DNA of 41,474 bases, taken from positions 1 to 41,474 of the IMG/VR virus record IMGVR_UViG_3300006109_000018, one strand, 5' to 3'. This stretch comes from a virus. Below are positions 6,266 to 28,852 of the stretch, piece after piece (position 1 is the stretch's first letter; each line of letters starts with the position of its first letter). The translations under genes were made by a program, and so were the position numbers. The notes below the pieces were generated by a model. It saw nothing but the letters and a program-made list of their open reading frames with translations, was not told the DNA's origin and made no database searches.

Positions 6266-6272
6266 AAAATTA

Positions 6273-18667: not shown

Positions 18668-20524
18668 ATGGCGAATTTCCCAGTATTTCATGGCATAACC
18701 TTAGCGGCCAATGCCTATGTCGAGAACTTGAATCTCGAAATCCTCTCAACAGACCCAACACCGGTTGCTGCTGGTCGTGTTTGGTTCAATTCAGTTGAGA
18801 AAGTTGTAAAGTATTCTGCACTTGATAGCACTGGTGCTGTTGTAGTTAAGACAATCAGCGATGTTGACTCTGCTGCTGCTGCTCTTGAGACTGTTCGTGC
18901 TTCTTTAGCATCTGACATCTCTGCAGAAGCTTCTGCTCGTCAAGCTGGCGATGCTGCTACTTTGGCTTCTGCTGGTGTTTACACCGACGCTGCTTTAGTT
19001 ACAGCTAAGGCTTACACAGACGCTGCTAAAGCTGAATTGTTGGGCGGTATTCCTCCTTCAGTTCTTGACACAATCACCAAATTAGCTTCTGCATTACAAA
19101 ACGATCCCAATATCGTTAACGTAATCGAAGGTATGGTTAACACAGTTCAAAGCAATTTGGACGCTGAAGTAACCCGTGCAACAGCTGCTGAAGCTGCTAT
19201 TACATCAACAGCAACAAGCAACTACAACACATTGAATTCAGCTATTTCTGCTGAAACAACACGTGCAACTGCTGCTGAAGGTGCATTAGACACACGCGTA
19301 ACAAGCTTAGAAAGCCAAACAAACGGTAAGATTGGTAACCTCTCTGACCTAACAACTAACGATAAGTCAACTATTGTTGCTGCTATCGACGAAGTTAAGG
19401 CTGACGGTGTATCTAACGCTGCTGCGATCTCTGCTGAAGTTAGCCGTGCACAAACTGCTGAAGCTGGTCTGTCTTCTGACATTTCTGCTGAAACAACACG
19501 TGCTCAAGCTGCTGAAGCTGGTTTGTCATCTGACATTTCTGCTGAAGCTACTGCTCGCGCAGCTGGCGATGCTACAAACGCTGCTGCTATCTCTGCTGAG
19601 ACAACACGTGCTCAAGCTGCTGAAGCTGGCTTGTCTTCTGACATCGCTGCTGAAGCAACAGCTCGCGCTGCTGCCGTTACTGCTGAGCAGTCACGTGCAC
19701 AAACAGCTGAAGCTGGTTTAGCATCTGACATTTCTGCTGAAGCTGCTACACGCGCTGCTGCAGATACTGCAGAGTACAATCGTGCTACTGGCGTTGAAGC
19801 TGGCTTAGCATCTGATATTGCTGCTGAGACAACACGTGCTACTGCTGCTGAAGCTGGTTTGGCATCAGACATTGCTGCTGAAGCTACTGCACGCGCTGCT
19901 GCTGTAACTGCAGAAGCTACTGCACGTATCGCTGGCGATGCTACTAACGCATCTGCTATTGCTGCAGAAGCTACTCGTGCTCAAGCTGCTGAAGCTGGTT
20001 TGGCAAGTGATATTGCTACTGAAGCATCTGCTCGTGCTGCTGCTGTTTCTGCTGAGACAACACGCGCTCAAGCTGCTGAAGCTGGTTTGGCAAGCGACAT
20101 CGCTGCTGAGACAACACGTGCTCAAACAGCTGAAGCTGCTAACGCTGCTGCTACTGCATCTGAGGCACTCCGTGCTACTGCTGCAGAAGCTGCTATTGCA
20201 AGCGACTTGGCTGCTGAAGTTACACGCGCTCAAGCTGCTGAAGCTGCTGAAGCAACACGTGCAGAAGCTGCTGAAGCTGCTATTCGTAGCGACTACAATG
20301 CAACAATCTTTACATTTGAAGCTGTTTCAGCTGCTACAACTCACACAATTTCACACAACTTGAACACAAGTTTTGCTGAGATTTCTGTTAAAGTTCAGCG
20401 CGCTGATGGCTTGTACTACAACGACATCGTTTCCGTTCAAGAAGTTGACGCAAACACTGTTCGCGTATACTTGTCTACAGCCTTGAAAGTTAAGGCAATT
20501 GTACGTAACGCAGTAACATTGTAA
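18668..20524 (+). CDS. Coiled-coil tail fibre with 18/11-residue repeats
   Basis: 618 aa. The N-terminus (ITLAANAYVENLNLEILSTD) should attach to the virion. Residues about 60-550 are an almost unbroken Ala/Glu/Thr-rich helix. Inside it, units of 18 residues (AETTRAQAAEAGLSSDIS) alternate with units of 11 (AEATARAAAVT) and variants (AEATARIAGDATNASAIA). 11 and 18 are spacings that keep a hydrophobic stripe in long coiled coils. The C-terminus (residues about 553-618, THTISHNLNTS...) is an HNL-type module. This looks like a long rigid fibre rod with a small distal or connector domain. Confidence 0.85.
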   Translation: MANFPVFHGITLAANAYVENLNLEILSTDPTPVAAGRVWFNSVEKVVKYSALDSTGAVVVKTISDVDSAAAALETVRASLASDISAEASARQAGDAATLASAGVYTDAALVTAKAYTDAAKAELLGGIPPSVLDTITKLASALQNDPNIVNVIEGMVNTVQSNLDAEVTRATAAEAAITSTATSNYNTLNSAISAETTRATAAEGALDTRVTSLESQTNGKIGNLSDLTTNDKSTIVAAIDEVKADGVSNAAAISAEVSRAQTAEAGLSSDISAETTRAQAAEAGLSSDISAEATARAAGDATNAAAISAETTRAQAAEAGLSSDIAAEATARAAAVTAEQSRAQTAEAGLASDISAEAATRAAADTAEYNRATGVEAGLASDIAAETTRATAAEAGLASDIAAEATARAAAVTAEATARIAGDATNASAIAAEATRAQAAEAGLASDIATEASARAAAVSAETTRAQAAEAGLASDIAAETTRAQTAEAANAAATASEALRATAAEAAIASDLAAEVTRAQAAEAAEATRAEAAEAAIRSDYNATIFTFEAVSAATTHTISHNLNTSFAEISVKVQRADGLYYNDIVSVQEVDANTVRVYLSTALKVKAIVRNAVTL

Positions 20525-20967: not shown

Positions 20968-22959
20968 ATGGAAACAAGAGTACTAAATGACCTATCGCTT
21001 TACGGCGCATTGGTTATGTCGAAAGACGAGTCGGGCTTCCCGGCTAACCCTGCTATTGGCACGATCATTATTAAAGATCAAGCTATTTATGCTTATATTC
21101 AACTAGGCGGATTAACAACATGGTATCCGTTCGCTAGCAAGACAAATTCATACGTACACAACCAAGGCGGCGCTGCCTCCATGTGGTTGGTGCAGCACAA
21201 TTTAGGCACTACTAACGTCTGGTACCAAATCAGACAGTCCAACGGAAACATTGTTTCTGCTGGTAAGACAGACATTGACATTAACTCGTTCTATCTATAT
21301 TTTACAGAACCAATTACTGGTACTGTAGTTGTAGTAGCACCAGATTCGATTGACGTGCCACAAGTTAGCGCAACAGCTATTGACGTTGCTAATGGTTCTG
21401 TTGTAATTGATAACTATGGTGTTAAAGTTCACGGCAACCAGGTATTAACTGGCGCAGACATTCAGCCACAGATTGATGCTTCTATTGCCGCTTTAGTAAA
21501 TGGCGCCCCAATGGCGCTTGACACATTAAAAGAAATTGCGGATCAGTTAGCAAACGATGAGTCCGCTGTTGCCAGTTTGACAACAACTGTTTCCAATAAG
21601 GCAAACAAAGACTTATCTAACGTCACCACATTGCCAGCTGGCGTAGTTGCTCAGCTCAAAGGCGATAAAGGTGACAAGGGTGACACTGGTTCGACAGGAG
21701 CACAAGGTCCTGCTGGTCCCAATGGTGCTAAAGGCGATACTGGTGCAACCGGCGCTCAAGGAATTCAAGGCGATAAGGGTGATACGGGCGCTCAAGGTCC
21801 ACAGGGTATCCAAGGACTTAAGGGTGATACAGGAGCCACAGGCGCTACTGGAGCACAAGGTATTCAGGGCTTAAAGGGTGACACTGGCGCAGCTGGTACT
21901 AATGGCACAAACGGCATGGACGGCGCAACTGGACCACAGGGCCCTCAAGGCTTGAAGGGTGATACAGGAGCTACCGGTGCCACAGGAGCAACTGGTCCTC
22001 AAGGTCCTAAAGGCGATACAGGTGCAGCTGGAATGGACGGCGCAACAGGCGCTACTGGTCCTCAAGGCCCACAAGGGTTAAAGGGTGATACAGGCGCAAC
22101 TGGCGATACTGGTGCAACAGGTGCTCAGGGTATCCAAGGCCCTAAAGGTGATACAGGAGCTACTGGTGCAACTGGACCGCAGGGCTTAAAAGGTGATACT
22201 GGCGCTACTGGTGCCACAGGTGCTCAGGGTCCTCAAGGAATTCAGGGTCCTAAAGGTGACACTGGTGCTACAGGTCCAGCTGGTACAGATGCAAGCGTAA
22301 CAACTACATCAATTGCTAACGCATTAGGGTATACCCCAACAAGCCCAACAGATGTAAGCTCTGCAATCCAAGCTGTTGTAGGAGCTGCTCCTGCTGCTCT
22401 GAACACATTGGCTAAGATTGATGCTCAGTTAGCAAGTGATGAGTCCGCAGCGGCTGCCTTGACTAATACTGTATCGGGCAAGGCTGATAAAGCTACTACA
22501 TTGTCTGGTTATGGCGTTACTGATGCTTATACTAAGACTGCGGTTGATAGCGCGTTAGCTCTTAAAGCAAACAGCAGTAGCTTGGCAACAGTGGCAACTA
22601 GCGGTTCTTATAATGATTTGTCTAACAAGCCAAGTTTGTTCTCTGGTGTATATACCGATCTGACAAGCAAACCCACATTAGCTACTGTGGCAACTAGCGG
22701 TTCATATACTGACCTGATTAACAAGCCAACCCTGTTTAGCGGTTCATATACCGATTTAACAAATAAGCCTACTTTGTTCTCAGGTGCGTATGCTGACTTG
22801 ACAGGAAAGCCAACTTTAGCTACAGTAGCAACTAGCGGCTCGTATACTGACTTGACAAGCAAGCCTACTTTGTTTAGCGGAGTTTTTGCCGATTTGACAA
22901 GTAAACCCACAACCTTATCTGGATACGGCATTACAGTTGTATCTGGCGGTTCATTTTAA
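20968..22959 (+). CDS. Collagen-like tail fibre with NKP repeats
   Basis: 663 aa. The N-terminal domain contains an HNL-type module (about 72-125, [20 protein letters not shown]). A helical module ([20 protein letters not shown]) precedes about 70 collagen-like Gly-X-Y triplets (residues about 231-440, [16 protein letters not shown] type). A second copy of the helical module follows ([20 protein letters not shown]). The distal part has seven repeats of (Y/F)xDLxxKP (e.g. [30 protein letters not shown]) and ends [13 protein letters not shown]. Collagen-like trimeric shaft plus modular tip, so a receptor-binding role is likely. Confidence 0.86.
21661..22290 (+). repeat. Collagen-like Gly-X-Y coding repeat
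   Basis: About 630 bp of imperfect 9-bp-based repeats (GGTGATACAGGAGC-type words) coding [16 protein letters not shown] units. Copies differ at third positions, which reduces slippage, but the unit order ([16 protein letters not shown]) is repeated, so length variation between relatives is expected. Confidence 0.85.
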
Positions 22960-26610: not shown

Positions 26611-27158
26611 TCTACCTTCTTTACATCATTTTAGTACCCATCAGCCTGGCTGTTACCCTATTAGCCGTATTGCTAGCCCCCATACTGCCCCTCTTTGCCT
26701 CGCAGCAAGAAGGGTGGAATGATAATCATTCTCAGTACGGCATGGGGCCTAGATTGCCTAATTGGCTGTCTTGGTTTATGACACCGGATAATAGCCTAGA
26801 TGGTGATGCAGCTTTTTACCTGTTAAACCCGCCATCTTACCTTTCACAGGTAAAATGGCTATTACGCAATCCGGCGTATAGTTTTGCACTACACTATTTT
26901 ATTCCCAATAATGCTGCCGTCTTTAATGGTGACAATCTAATTAAGGATAATGACAATGCAAAAGAAGGATGGCTTTTGGTCCGCGCTAACGGACTCTTTC
27001 AGTTTGTTTGGATTAGGCATATACCTAGCACTACTCGTTGTATTATGTTTAATCTCGGCTGGAATATTCGTGCATTGGTTGATCCGAATGTGAGCCCCAA
27101 ACCTAGCCCATATCAGGCTACCTTTGTGTTCTCACCACGTATCTCGGGGTTTAGATAA
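26607..27158 (+). CDS. Hypothetical membrane protein in the lysis cassette, 183 aa
   Basis: GTG start overlapping the previous stop (GTGA). The N-terminus is a long hydrophobic segment (IYLLYIILVPISLAVTLLAV, LLAPILPLF), followed by a soluble domain with WNDNHSQYGMGPRLPNWLSW, DNSLDGDAAFYLLNPPSYLS, WLLRNPAYSFALHYF and WLLVRANGLFQFVWI. The NPaY.f...f aromatic motif and size fit an uncharacterised family I recall beside spanins in betaproteobacterial phages. Membrane-anchored, function unknown. Confidence 0.75.
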   Translation: MIYLLYIILVPISLAVTLLAVLLAPILPLFASQQEGWNDNHSQYGMGPRLPNWLSWFMTPDNSLDGDAAFYLLNPPSYLSQVKWLLRNPAYSFALHYFIPNNAAVFNGDNLIKDNDNAKEGWLLVRANGLFQFVWIRHIPSTTRCIMFNLGWNIRALVDPNVSPKPSPYQATFVFSPRISGFR

Positions 27159-27631
27159 TGTGGAAAATACTTCTAAGCGGTATTAGTGGAGTCTACCTAT
27201 ACATCACCATTGCATCCTTGTCTATTGTGGCAGGTGGCTATGTGGGTTATAGCTGGACTTCAGACTATTACATTGCTAAAATAGAAAAGGCAAACGAACT
27301 AGCATTAAAGGAAAAAGATGACATTGAGCAAAAAGGTGACCAGCTGGTTGTGCAGTATATTGACCAAATTACCAAAGTATCAAATCACAATGCCGATCTA
27401 CAAAAACAAATCACTTTGGCTGTTGGGTCTAATCGGTGTGCTATTAGCAACGGCTTTGTGCGGGTGTTCAACGCCAGTGCGACTGGTGAGGCCTCAGCCC
27501 CCAGCAGCCTTGATGGTACCGCCAGCACCATTGACACAGCTACCCTCCTCTCCATTGCCATCGAAAACAACGAAAAATACCGCAAACTAGCGGATCAATT
27601 GACCCAACTACAGGCATTTGAATCACAATAA
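27158..27631 (+). CDS. i-spanin (Rz-like)
   Basis: 157 aa. N-terminal inner-membrane anchor (ITIASLSIVAGGYVGYSW, about 17-34) followed by a periplasmic coiled coil (KIEKANELALKEKDDIEQKG ... HNADLQKQI), then SNRCAISNGFVRVFNASATG, a segment typical of Rz proteins, and a helical end. With the nested Rz1 it would fuse inner and outer membranes at the last step of lysis. A second lysis gene is encoded inside it in the +1 frame. Confidence 0.85.
   Translation: MWKILLSGISGVYLYITIASLSIVAGGYVGYSWTSDYYIAKIEKANELALKEKDDIEQKGDQLVVQYIDQITKVSNHNADLQKQITLAVGSNRCAISNGFVRVFNASATGEASAPSSLDGTASTIDTATLLSIAIENNEKYRKLADQLTQLQAFESQ
27390..27590 (+). CDS. o-spanin (Rz1-like lipoprotein) nested in Rz
   Basis: 66 aa from the ATG at 27390. 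Signal peptide MPIYKNKSLWLLGLIGVLLA, then TALCGC with the lipobox Cys at residue 26 (LCG|C), followed by a Pro-rich mature part (STPVRLVRPQPPAALMVPPA). It lies completely within the Rz gene in another frame, the classical nested arrangement. An outer-membrane lipoprotein that pairs with the i-spanin. A longer frame from 27318 would spoil the signal peptide and is not favoured. Confidence 0.88.
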   Translation: MPIYKNKSLWLLGLIGVLLATALCGCSTPVRLVRPQPPAALMVPPAPLTQLPSSPLPSKTTKNTAN

Positions 27632-27677: not shown

Positions 27678-28199
27678 ATGAAAAAAGTAGTCGCTGTAGC
27701 ATTATGGCTGTTAGGTAGTTTTGCAATAATTCACTTTACAGACCGATTTACCCAGATTGAAGAAAACATTATGGCAATCGCTAAATCCACCCTAGACTTT
27801 ATCATCAAAGAAGAAGGCTCCCGTAATAAAGCCTATAAAGACTCTAAGGGTCTGCTTACCATTGGTGTAGGCCATTTAATCAAGGCAGACGAGCCTCACC
27901 TAAAAGACGCCGTTCTTACTGACGAGCAGGTAGAAGACCTCCTTAGAAGCGATTTAAAGTGGTGTAGCGAGGCCGTAGAGAGCTCGGTGAAGGTATCCCT
28001 TAGCCAGAACCAATACGACGCCCTATACAGCCTTTGTTTTAATCTTGGGGCCACAAATTTTAAAAAATCCACTGTTGTTAAAAAAATTAACGAGAATGAC
28101 TTAAAAGGAGCTGCAGACGCTTTTTTAATGTGGAACAAACCTGCTGTATTACAAAAACGCAGGGAACGTGAAAGAGCATTGTTTTTAAGTGGTATTTAA
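27678..28199 (+). CDS. SAR endolysin (GH24 lysozyme)
   Basis: 173-aa muramidase. N-terminal signal-arrest-release segment (VVAVALWLLGSFAIIHF, about 4-20). The catalytic triad E46-x8-D55-x5-T61 in KEEGSRNKAYKDSKGLLTIG has the spacing of T4 lysozyme (E11, D20, T26). Then GVGHLI, SLSQNQYDALYSLCFNLGA and a C-terminal MWNKPAVLQKRRERERALFL. It cuts peptidoglycan after release from the membrane. The ribosome binding site AAGGAG is strong; an internal Met32 could give a cytosolic form. Its last codons are duplicated at the end of the following homing endonuclease gene (see 28165-28198). Confidence 0.92.
   Translation: MKKVVAVALWLLGSFAIIHFTDRFTQIEENIMAIAKSTLDFIIKEEGSRNKAYKDSKGLLTIGVGHLIKADEPHLKDAVLTDEQVEDLLRSDLKWCSEAVESSVKVSLSQNQYDALYSLCFNLGATNFKKSTVVKKINENDLKGAADAFLMWNKPAVLQKRRERERALFLSGI
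28165..28198 (+). repeat. Duplicated endolysin 3' end, copy 1 (recoded)
   Basis: The 34 bp coding the tail RERALFLSGI match 28760-28793 at 29 of 34 positions. Every difference within the shared codons is synonymous (GCA/GCG, TTG/CTA, AGT/AGC, GGT/GGA). The flanking 5' codons are also similar at protein level (KRRERER versus NRRKRER). Confidence 0.9.
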
Positions 28200-28200
28200 T

Positions 28201-28794
28201 ATGCAACATTACGTTTATGCTCATACTAAACCAGACGGCACTATTTTTTATATTGGAAAAGGTAGCAATAAAAGGGCGTATCAAAAAACGGGAAGAAATC
28301 CACACTGGCATAACGTTGTTAATAAATATGGGTATTCTGTTGTCATTTTAGCTGACCAATTAACAGAAGTTGAAGCATTTAAAGAGGAAATTGATTTAAT
28401 TAAACATTTTAATGTTTTTGGATTTTTGGTAAATAAAACGTTAGGTGGTGAGGGAATTTCTGGGGCTAAACTACCAAAATGGCAACAAGAACGGGTAACC
28501 AAAGGTGTTCATCACACACAAACAAAAGAATATAGTCAAAAAAGAAAATCAATACAAAAAATTGCTGTTTTAAATGGTTCATGGATTTCCCCAATGCTTA
28601 ATCCAGAATACGCAAAAAAGCAATCAGAAACAAAGAAAAATGCTGAATTAATAACCTGCCCAAAATGCAAATTAACAAAAAAGAAAGGGTCTAATATGAC
28701 AAGATACCATTTTGATAATTGCAAACAGTATTTAAGCAAAGCCACAAAAAATAGAAGAAAACGTGAAAGAGCGCTATTTTTAAGCGGAATTTAG
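28201..28794 (+). CDS. GIY-YIG homing endonuclease with C-terminal endolysin-tail graft
   Basis: 197 aa from the ATG at 28201, which directly follows the endolysin stop. The GIY-YIG domain has YVYAH, FYIGKG, Arg25 (SNKRAYQ) and the Glu helix (LTEVEAFKEEIDLIKHF), then NKTLGGEGISGAK. NUMOD-like repeats and a Zn-finger-like end (ITCPKCKLTKKKGSNMTRYH, then FDNC) follow. The final residues RKRERALFLSGI copy the end of the endolysin (RERERALFLSGI). The A/T-rich codon use fits a mobile gene. No Shine-Dalgarno is visible; translation may be coupled to the endolysin. Its stop codon TAG is part of promoter element 5. Confidence 0.9.
   Translation: MQHYVYAHTKPDGTIFYIGKGSNKRAYQKTGRNPHWHNVVNKYGYSVVILADQLTEVEAFKEEIDLIKHFNVFGFLVNKTLGGEGISGAKLPKWQQERVTKGVHHTQTKEYSQKRKSIQKIAVLNGSWISPMLNPEYAKKQSETKKNAELITCPKCKLTKKKGSNMTRYHFDNCKQYLSKATKNRRKRERALFLSGI
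28760..28793 (+). repeat. Duplicated endolysin 3' end, copy 2 (probably ancestral)
   Basis: Second copy of the RERALFLSGI coding segment, now the 3' end of the GIY-YIG gene. Because it abuts promoter element 5 directly, as the ancestral endolysin end would have, this is probably the original and 28165-28198 the copy brought or created at insertion. Confidence 0.85.
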
Positions 28795-28822
28795 GGCGTA
28801 AACGCTTGATTTAGCGTATTAG
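28791..28822 (+). promoter_or_regulatory. Phage promoter element 5 (AGGGCG-N18-TATTAG)
   Basis: TTAGGGCG at 28791-28798 and TATTAG at 28817-28822, 24 nt start to start. It overlaps the stop codon of the GIY-YIG gene. The next ATG (28853) is 30 nt downstream with a GGGAC ribosome binding site, so this transcript has a normal leader. It drives the head-completion/nozzle region. Confidence 0.8.
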
Positions 28823-28852
28823 TAGATATAGGAATAACCTACAGGGACAGAA

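Follow-up and report, generated by a model that had tools for sequence, protein, structure and literature searches.

A GIY-YIG endonuclease gene between two copies of an endolysin gene end in a freshwater phage

The window, a stretch of 41,474 nucleotides covering positions 1 to 41,474 of the IMG/VR virus record IMGVR_UViG_3300006109_000018, belongs to a freshwater phage. Its endolysin gene is followed by a GIY-YIG endonuclease gene that ends, like the endolysin, in a lysozyme tail, and the two genes and the elements around them are arranged as follows.

27678..28199, + strand: endolysin, 173 aa, a P22-type lysozyme with an intact C-terminus (PF00959, E=5e-34; phrog_7 endolysin; 2anv)
28153..28198, + strand: copy 1, the functional endolysin end (KRRERERALFLSGI), a 46-nt direct repeat 78% identical to copy 2
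28201..28794, + strand: GIY-YIG homing-type endonuclease gene, 197 aa (phrog_314 homing endonuclease, E=2e-15)
28748..28793, + strand: copy 2 (NRRKRERALFLSGI), the in-frame endonuclease end, at the position of the endolysin end of relatives
28787..28824, + strand: terminator/promoter-like cassette containing promoter element 5 (28813-28823), recurrent and matched in L051
28853..29542, + strand: next gene, 229 aa (MDDFKK...), function unassigned, lying ~50-83 nt past the endolysin in nearly all relatives

The solved lysozyme 2anv can be aligned through the end of the endolysin ('...LLPRRRRERALFLS'), its own terminus being RRRRERALFLS. The C-terminal RRxRExxLFL segment is present in the endolysin, and R161, R162, R164, E165 and L168-L170 are invariant in 18 relatives. 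Because this tail is conserved in the relatives as well as in a solved P22-type lysozyme, its loss should be costly. Just 5' of the endolysin, two overlapping open reading frames in different frames (27158-27631 and 27318-27590) resemble a nested spanin pair, in which a lipoprotein-like frame (LLATALCGCS) is embedded in a membrane-anchored one. Putative tail genes at 21660-22290 and 19150-20290 contain long arrays of collagen-like GXY and alanine/glutamate-rich repeats.

The endonuclease gene starts one base past the endolysin stop (TAA-T-ATG) and has a G+C content of 32%, compared with 41% and 45% in its neighbours. The residues of the GIY-YIG motifs and the catalytic Arg, Glu and Asn (Y6, F16-Y17, G19, R25, E63 and N78) are invariant in an alignment of nine homologues. 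The protein has no Pfam match at E 0.01, and its match to solved GIY-YIG chains is short and weak. An intron or intein is ruled out, because no Rfam family reaches the gathering score in the window and the endolysin reading frame is whole and continuous; the gene is free-standing. Its product carries a C-terminal zinc finger (CxxC...HFDNC), after which the lysozyme tail forms the last 14 residues. Homologues with the same zinc finger stop at or soon after HFDNCK(Q), so that the last ~14-18 residues of the window protein appear to be an addition. Being in frame, basic and located at the end of the DNA-binding region, the tail RRKRERALF could be a recruited extension through which the endonuclease binds DNA, its lysozyme origin being incidental. 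However, the homologues with the same finger do without it, and most of its differences from the endolysin tail are synonymous, which fits a lysozyme tail and not a newly selected sequence. We assign such a recruitment a very low probability, the lowest of the explanations weighed here.

The duplication of the tail between the endolysin and the GIY-YIG gene is real. The initial annotation had noted two 34-bp segments, 28165-28198 and 28760-28793, with only silent differences, and codon comparison bears this out for these segments: their five mismatches (28178, 28179, 28181, 28190 and 28193) are all synonymous in a shared frame. The full direct repeat, however, extends over 46 nt (28153-28198 and 28748-28793), with 36 of 46 positions identical (78%) and a spacing of 595. 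Upstream of the 34 bp, the tails differ in two amino acids (K160 vs N184 and E163 vs K187), and so the silent character of the differences is limited to the 34-bp segment. Over the 14 codons and the stop, six sense codons and the stop codon have changed silently and two codons non-silently, the stop being TAA in the endolysin and TAG in the GIY-YIG gene. Chance similarity is ruled out by codon shuffling and by a search of the entire window. When the codons of the GIY-YIG gene were shuffled 3000 times, the highest 46-nt match reached 28/46, and the next-best match to the tail in the whole window, on either strand, is 27/46.

Copy 2 leads into a TTTAGGGCG...GCGTATTAGT cassette, which is probably a terminator plus a phage-type promoter. 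The GCGTATTAGT element is present in six copies in the window (3570, 6295, 9437, 13895, 28813 and 35089), compared with at most four in 100 shuffles, and five of the six lie inside a cassette of the TTTAGGGCG... type. The cassette recurs in similar form at 6269, 9411, 13869 and 35063. The copy at 28813 is the fifth of the six, in agreement with the earlier description of copy 2 as abutting promoter element 5. Relatives vary GCGTATTAGT to TTTTTTGCATTAGTATAAGTAGG.

Among 80 endolysin loci compared, the GIY-YIG insert is present in two, the IMG/VR contigs L002 and L003, which show the identical arrangement. Because their identity to the window is 100% over at least 6.6 kb and at least 14.6 kb, these contigs represent the same phage and are no independent cases; no second independent case at the endolysin was found among the 80 loci. 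An assembly artefact is countered by the recurrence of the arrangement in these two other contigs of the same phage. With the 2.8-kb region as query, the phages collection gave no match at the DNA level. The gene is patchy at this site, being absent from at least 70 related loci, in which the cassette located behind copy 2 in the window comes directly after the endolysin stop. In nearly all nuclease-free loci with downstream sequence, the next gene begins ~50-83 nt past the endolysin stop. L051 has CTTGATTTAGCGTATTAGTAGATATAGGAATAACCTACAGGGACAGAAATGGACGATTT right behind its endolysin, and this is the sequence found behind copy 2 in the window. A pattern search for the exact SGI-type ending gave two nuclease-free examples at an endolysin end, L057/L192 and L194, which read ...AGCGGTATTTAGGGCGTAAAT... 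into the promoter. L057, a relative of the window phage, also carries, in the interval from the same promoter to the next gene, an HNH/endonuclease VII-like gene (L057:3641-4177) with no accompanying repeat; this is a second nuclease in this short interval.

Because the endolysin–cassette junction is uninterrupted in the relatives, the nuclease gene is an insertion, and copy 2 occupies the old position of the gene end. A location of the GIY-YIG gene inside the ancestral endolysin–promoter junction is well supported by these comparisons. The core of the initial proposal, that a mobile gene inserted near the end of the endolysin gene, is supported in the same way. As it had anticipated, the endolysin 3' ends of at least 70 nuclease-free loci run directly into the promoter. 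Had relatives matched copy 1 and shown no trace of copy 2, this would have spoken against it; instead, the tail–promoter junction of the relatives is the copy-2 junction.

It is likely that a free-standing GIY-YIG homing gene entered the 3' end of the endolysin gene, that the two tails are two alleles of this end and that the lysozyme was thereby kept whole. Copy 1 has a tail of the KRRE class and copy 2 one of the NRRK class, and since the copies fall into different classes, they look like two alleles and not like a recent duplicate. This argues against a history in which unequal recombination first duplicated the endolysin 3' end locally and the endonuclease gene was inserted between the copies later, in an unrelated event. 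Such a history would fit the direct orientation of the copies and the frequent recombination of the tail region, but a doubled tail without the nuclease gene is found in none of the fetched relatives, and the coupling of a nuclease with a doubled gene end recurs elsewhere. We regard unequal recombination as highly improbable.

A first survey of ~40 endonuclease loci, which covered the C-terminus of the preceding gene alone, gave no other case. A survey in both directions, which covered the upstream and downstream flanks of 45 loci with endonuclease relatives, the window phage included, revealed a mirror arrangement at the start of the following gene in three other GIY-YIG loci, L229, L249 and L233. 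In this architecture, the nuclease gene is immediately preceded by a truncated start of the following gene, which ends in a stop codon of its own, and the complete gene starts at the nuclease stop (ATGA overlap) and spells this start differently.

L229:1974-2760: tail fibre gene; 26 codons, in a 30-codon stub; 14 silent and 2 non-silent codon changes
L249: 75-aa gene, function unassigned; 29 codons; 14 silent and 9 non-silent codon changes
L233:2437-3250: 64-aa gene (MKYIVLM...); 12-codon stub; 7 silent and 2 non-silent codon changes

The flank scores are 119 for L229, 108 for L249, 51 for L233 and 59 for the window, and cross-paired flanks of named-phage loci, used as a control, reach a top score of 51 in 182 pairings. 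Because the score of L233 equals this control value, the L233 case rests on its relatives and not on the score. No doubled gene ends were found in 14 related endonuclease loci from named phage records. The scores of L205, L207, L209, L121 and L246 were discarded as reflecting composition, paralogous tail-fibre modules or zinc-finger repeats.

The direction of replacement can be resolved from sequence comparison in two of these other gene systems, the L249-type gene and L233. For the L249-type gene, a control panel of 79 further loci provided 50 distinct nuclease-free alleles. Two loci of the panel gene, L271 and L297, have a stub and a replacement start as well, but with an HNH enzyme. The L271 enzyme belongs to phrog_374 and has clear homologues in L297 and in L318, which carries the HNH enzyme and a replacement start without a stub. 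The start of one and the same 75-aa gene appears to have been invaded by GIY-YIG (L249) and HNH (L271, L297, L318) genes, with replaced starts in all four loci and stubs in three of them. The stubs of L249, L271 and L297 show 2, 3 and 5 mismatches in 57 nt to the nearest of the 50 nuclease-free alleles, compared with 13, 14 and 10 in 57 for their functional starts (13 for L318). The functional starts of L249 and L271, which accompany unrelated nucleases, differ from each other at 8 positions, while they differ from their own stubs at 22 and 18 positions, respectively. Consistently, the nuclease-free L337 has 2 mismatches of 36 to the L233 stub and 11 to the L233 functional start. A GIY-YIG gene also precedes the same 64-aa gene as that of L233 in L343/L344:778-1540, and a search for a stub there found none. 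Since it is the stubs, and not the functional starts, that match nuclease-free alleles, the functional end arrived with the nuclease in the L249-type gene and in L233, the stub being native. The mirror cases suggest that, in some phages, the homing gene itself supplies the replacement end of the gene that it splits.

In the tail-fibre gene, SLQ is followed by P in the four loci that bear a nuclease (L365, L368, L371 and L372, the last starting within the nuclease gene), and the 20 loci scored as nuclease-free by this motif have G, T or A at this position. L396, which has SLQP, starts at the contig edge. The SLQP start variant lies behind a GIY-YIG gene in L229, L106/L368, L107/L371 and L372 and is absent from nuclease-free loci with upstream sequence. 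The tail-fibre stub is known only in L229.

By analogy with these mirror cases at gene starts, it is most likely that the functional copy in the window came with the endonuclease and that the displaced copy is the old gene end. The initial annotation had taken copy 1 to be recoded and copy 2 to be the original, a distinction that the relatives do not settle. The 33-nt core of copy 1 (up to TTTTTA) shows 3 mismatches to its nearest nuclease-free alleles, L004, L012 and L047, and that of copy 2 shows 4 mismatches to L038, L039 and L041. Neither tail in the window appears clearly foreign, and copy 1 looks like an ordinary allele with no visible recoding. The expected resemblance of the relatives' tails to copy 2 is seen in L057, the one close relative that favours this copy (of 45 positions, 7 mismatches to copy 2 vs 13 to copy 1), but not in L004, L012 and L047, which are nearer copy 1; the L194 tail has 11 mismatches of 45 to copy 2 vs 10 to copy 1. 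In the endolysin-body tree, the window groups with L004 (KRRE), then with L012 and L051 (KRRE) and L057 (PRRK), and among the relatives whose endolysin bodies are closest, most have a tail of the copy-1 class. Since tail classes are shuffled among endolysin bodies by recombination, this tree is indecisive as an arbiter of the foreign tail. Because the break may fall anywhere within the repeat, the tail may also be a hybrid.

The place of copy 1 among the relatives bears on another explanation, in which a fusion of the nuclease gene and copy 2, formed beforehand in a phage with an NRRK-type tail, inserted at the native endolysin stop or immediately behind it, copy 1 being the native tail that was never replaced. 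The grouping of the endolysin body with L004, L012 and L051, which have the copy-1 tail class, speaks for this order of events, as does the difference of only 3/33 nt between copy 1 up to TTTTTA and L004. However, copy 2 runs into the native cassette just as the endolysin end of the relatives does, and its last codons (AGC, TAG) match those of the SGI-ending L057 and L194 better than the last codons of copy 1 (AGT, TAA) do. In addition, the mirror cases at the L249-type gene and at L233 have the native copy in the displaced position. We consider an arrival with prefused copy 2 unlikely.

If the homing gene entered the endolysin 3' end and brought the functional copy with it, the enzyme would cut the vacant end of the endolysin gene, and double-strand-break repair from a carrier would copy the nuclease gene together with a compatible gene end, leaving the old end behind. 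The inserted unit would be ~595 nt long and bounded by two lysozyme-tail alleles. Copy 1 would complete the lysozyme that precedes the endonuclease gene; copy 2 would adjoin the old terminator/promoter and be read as the C-terminus of the endonuclease, with which the old tail in the window happens to be in frame. Because doubled tail alleles surround the insert, the lysis gene would stay whole and the junction with the downstream promoter would be kept. The occupied allele may be protected from recutting by the sequence difference between the tails or by separation from the remaining recognition site. The duplication, the ancestral junction, the family of the nuclease and the recurrent replacement of gene ends alongside nuclease genes are seen in the sequences; for the window, we infer mobility, the cutting site, the identity of the foreign copy and immunity.

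A replacement gene end would explain how a free-standing homing gene that uses neither intron nor intein can reside within a gene needed by the phage, and it could also confer immunity to cleavage. Such elements, if real, could target conserved, essential gene ends. Lysozyme, tail-fibre and other genes would have their ends exchanged among phages, with recognisable short stub reading frames left behind, and the stub/replacement pairs would serve as ready-made predictions of the target site versus the resistant site. Synthetic home-and-rescue gene drives are engineered systems in which a homing nuclease carries a recoded piece of its target gene. The arrangement in the window is natural, and its likeness to these drives is one that we infer only. 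Whether phages carry natural 'home-and-rescue' elements, that is, homing genes from two or more unrelated superfamilies (GIY-YIG and HNH) with a respelled 5' or 3' end of the target gene, which would keep the target working and immune while the old end stays as a stub, is in our judgement an evenly balanced proposition.

T4 Seg and other free-standing phage homing endonucleases resemble the window system in that a GIY-YIG gene lies beside an essential gene, with no intron or intein. The nrdA gene of phage Aeh1, which contains mobE, is reportedly split into two cooperating parts (genes in pieces), whereas the upstream gene of the window is whole and only its end is doubled. Like the window insert, mobE is described as a homing gene inside an essential, still working gene (cited in PMC2988022). 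The Seg genes are described there as located between genes and cutting at a distance, unlike the window insert, which lies inside a gene end. A text search of this review for 'duplicat' gave no match, duplicated gene ends being absent from it. In the excerpted text of an article on nuclease genes at phage recombination boundaries (PMC10448857), duplications are mentioned only in nuclease coding sequences and DNA-binding repeats. No report of phage nuclease genes with replacement gene ends was found in the accessible part of the open-licence literature.

The initial annotation had not regarded the arrangement as a standard one, but a precedent exists in the mORFs of fungal mitochondria, which are described in atp6, atp9, cox2 and nad3 (Beaudet et al. 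2013, PMC3630166), the first case being atp6 of Allomyces macrogynus. According to that article, the mORFs, like the window gene, are endonuclease reading frames located near the 3' end of a gene, between two copies of that end. A divergent C-terminal segment, whose differences are largely synonymous, completes the upstream gene; the native C-terminus is found 3' of the reading frame, and in one case, atp9, the endonuclease is of the GIY-YIG type, as in the window (PMC3630166). The window differs from them in that it belongs to a phage and not to a mitochondrion and in that the endonuclease reading frame continues into the tail at the native position. In related phage loci, moreover, the arrangement is found at the 5' ends of genes and also with HNH enzymes. 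As far as the accessible open-licence literature shows, the architecture at gene 3' ends is known from fungal mitochondria, and its presence in phages is unreported.
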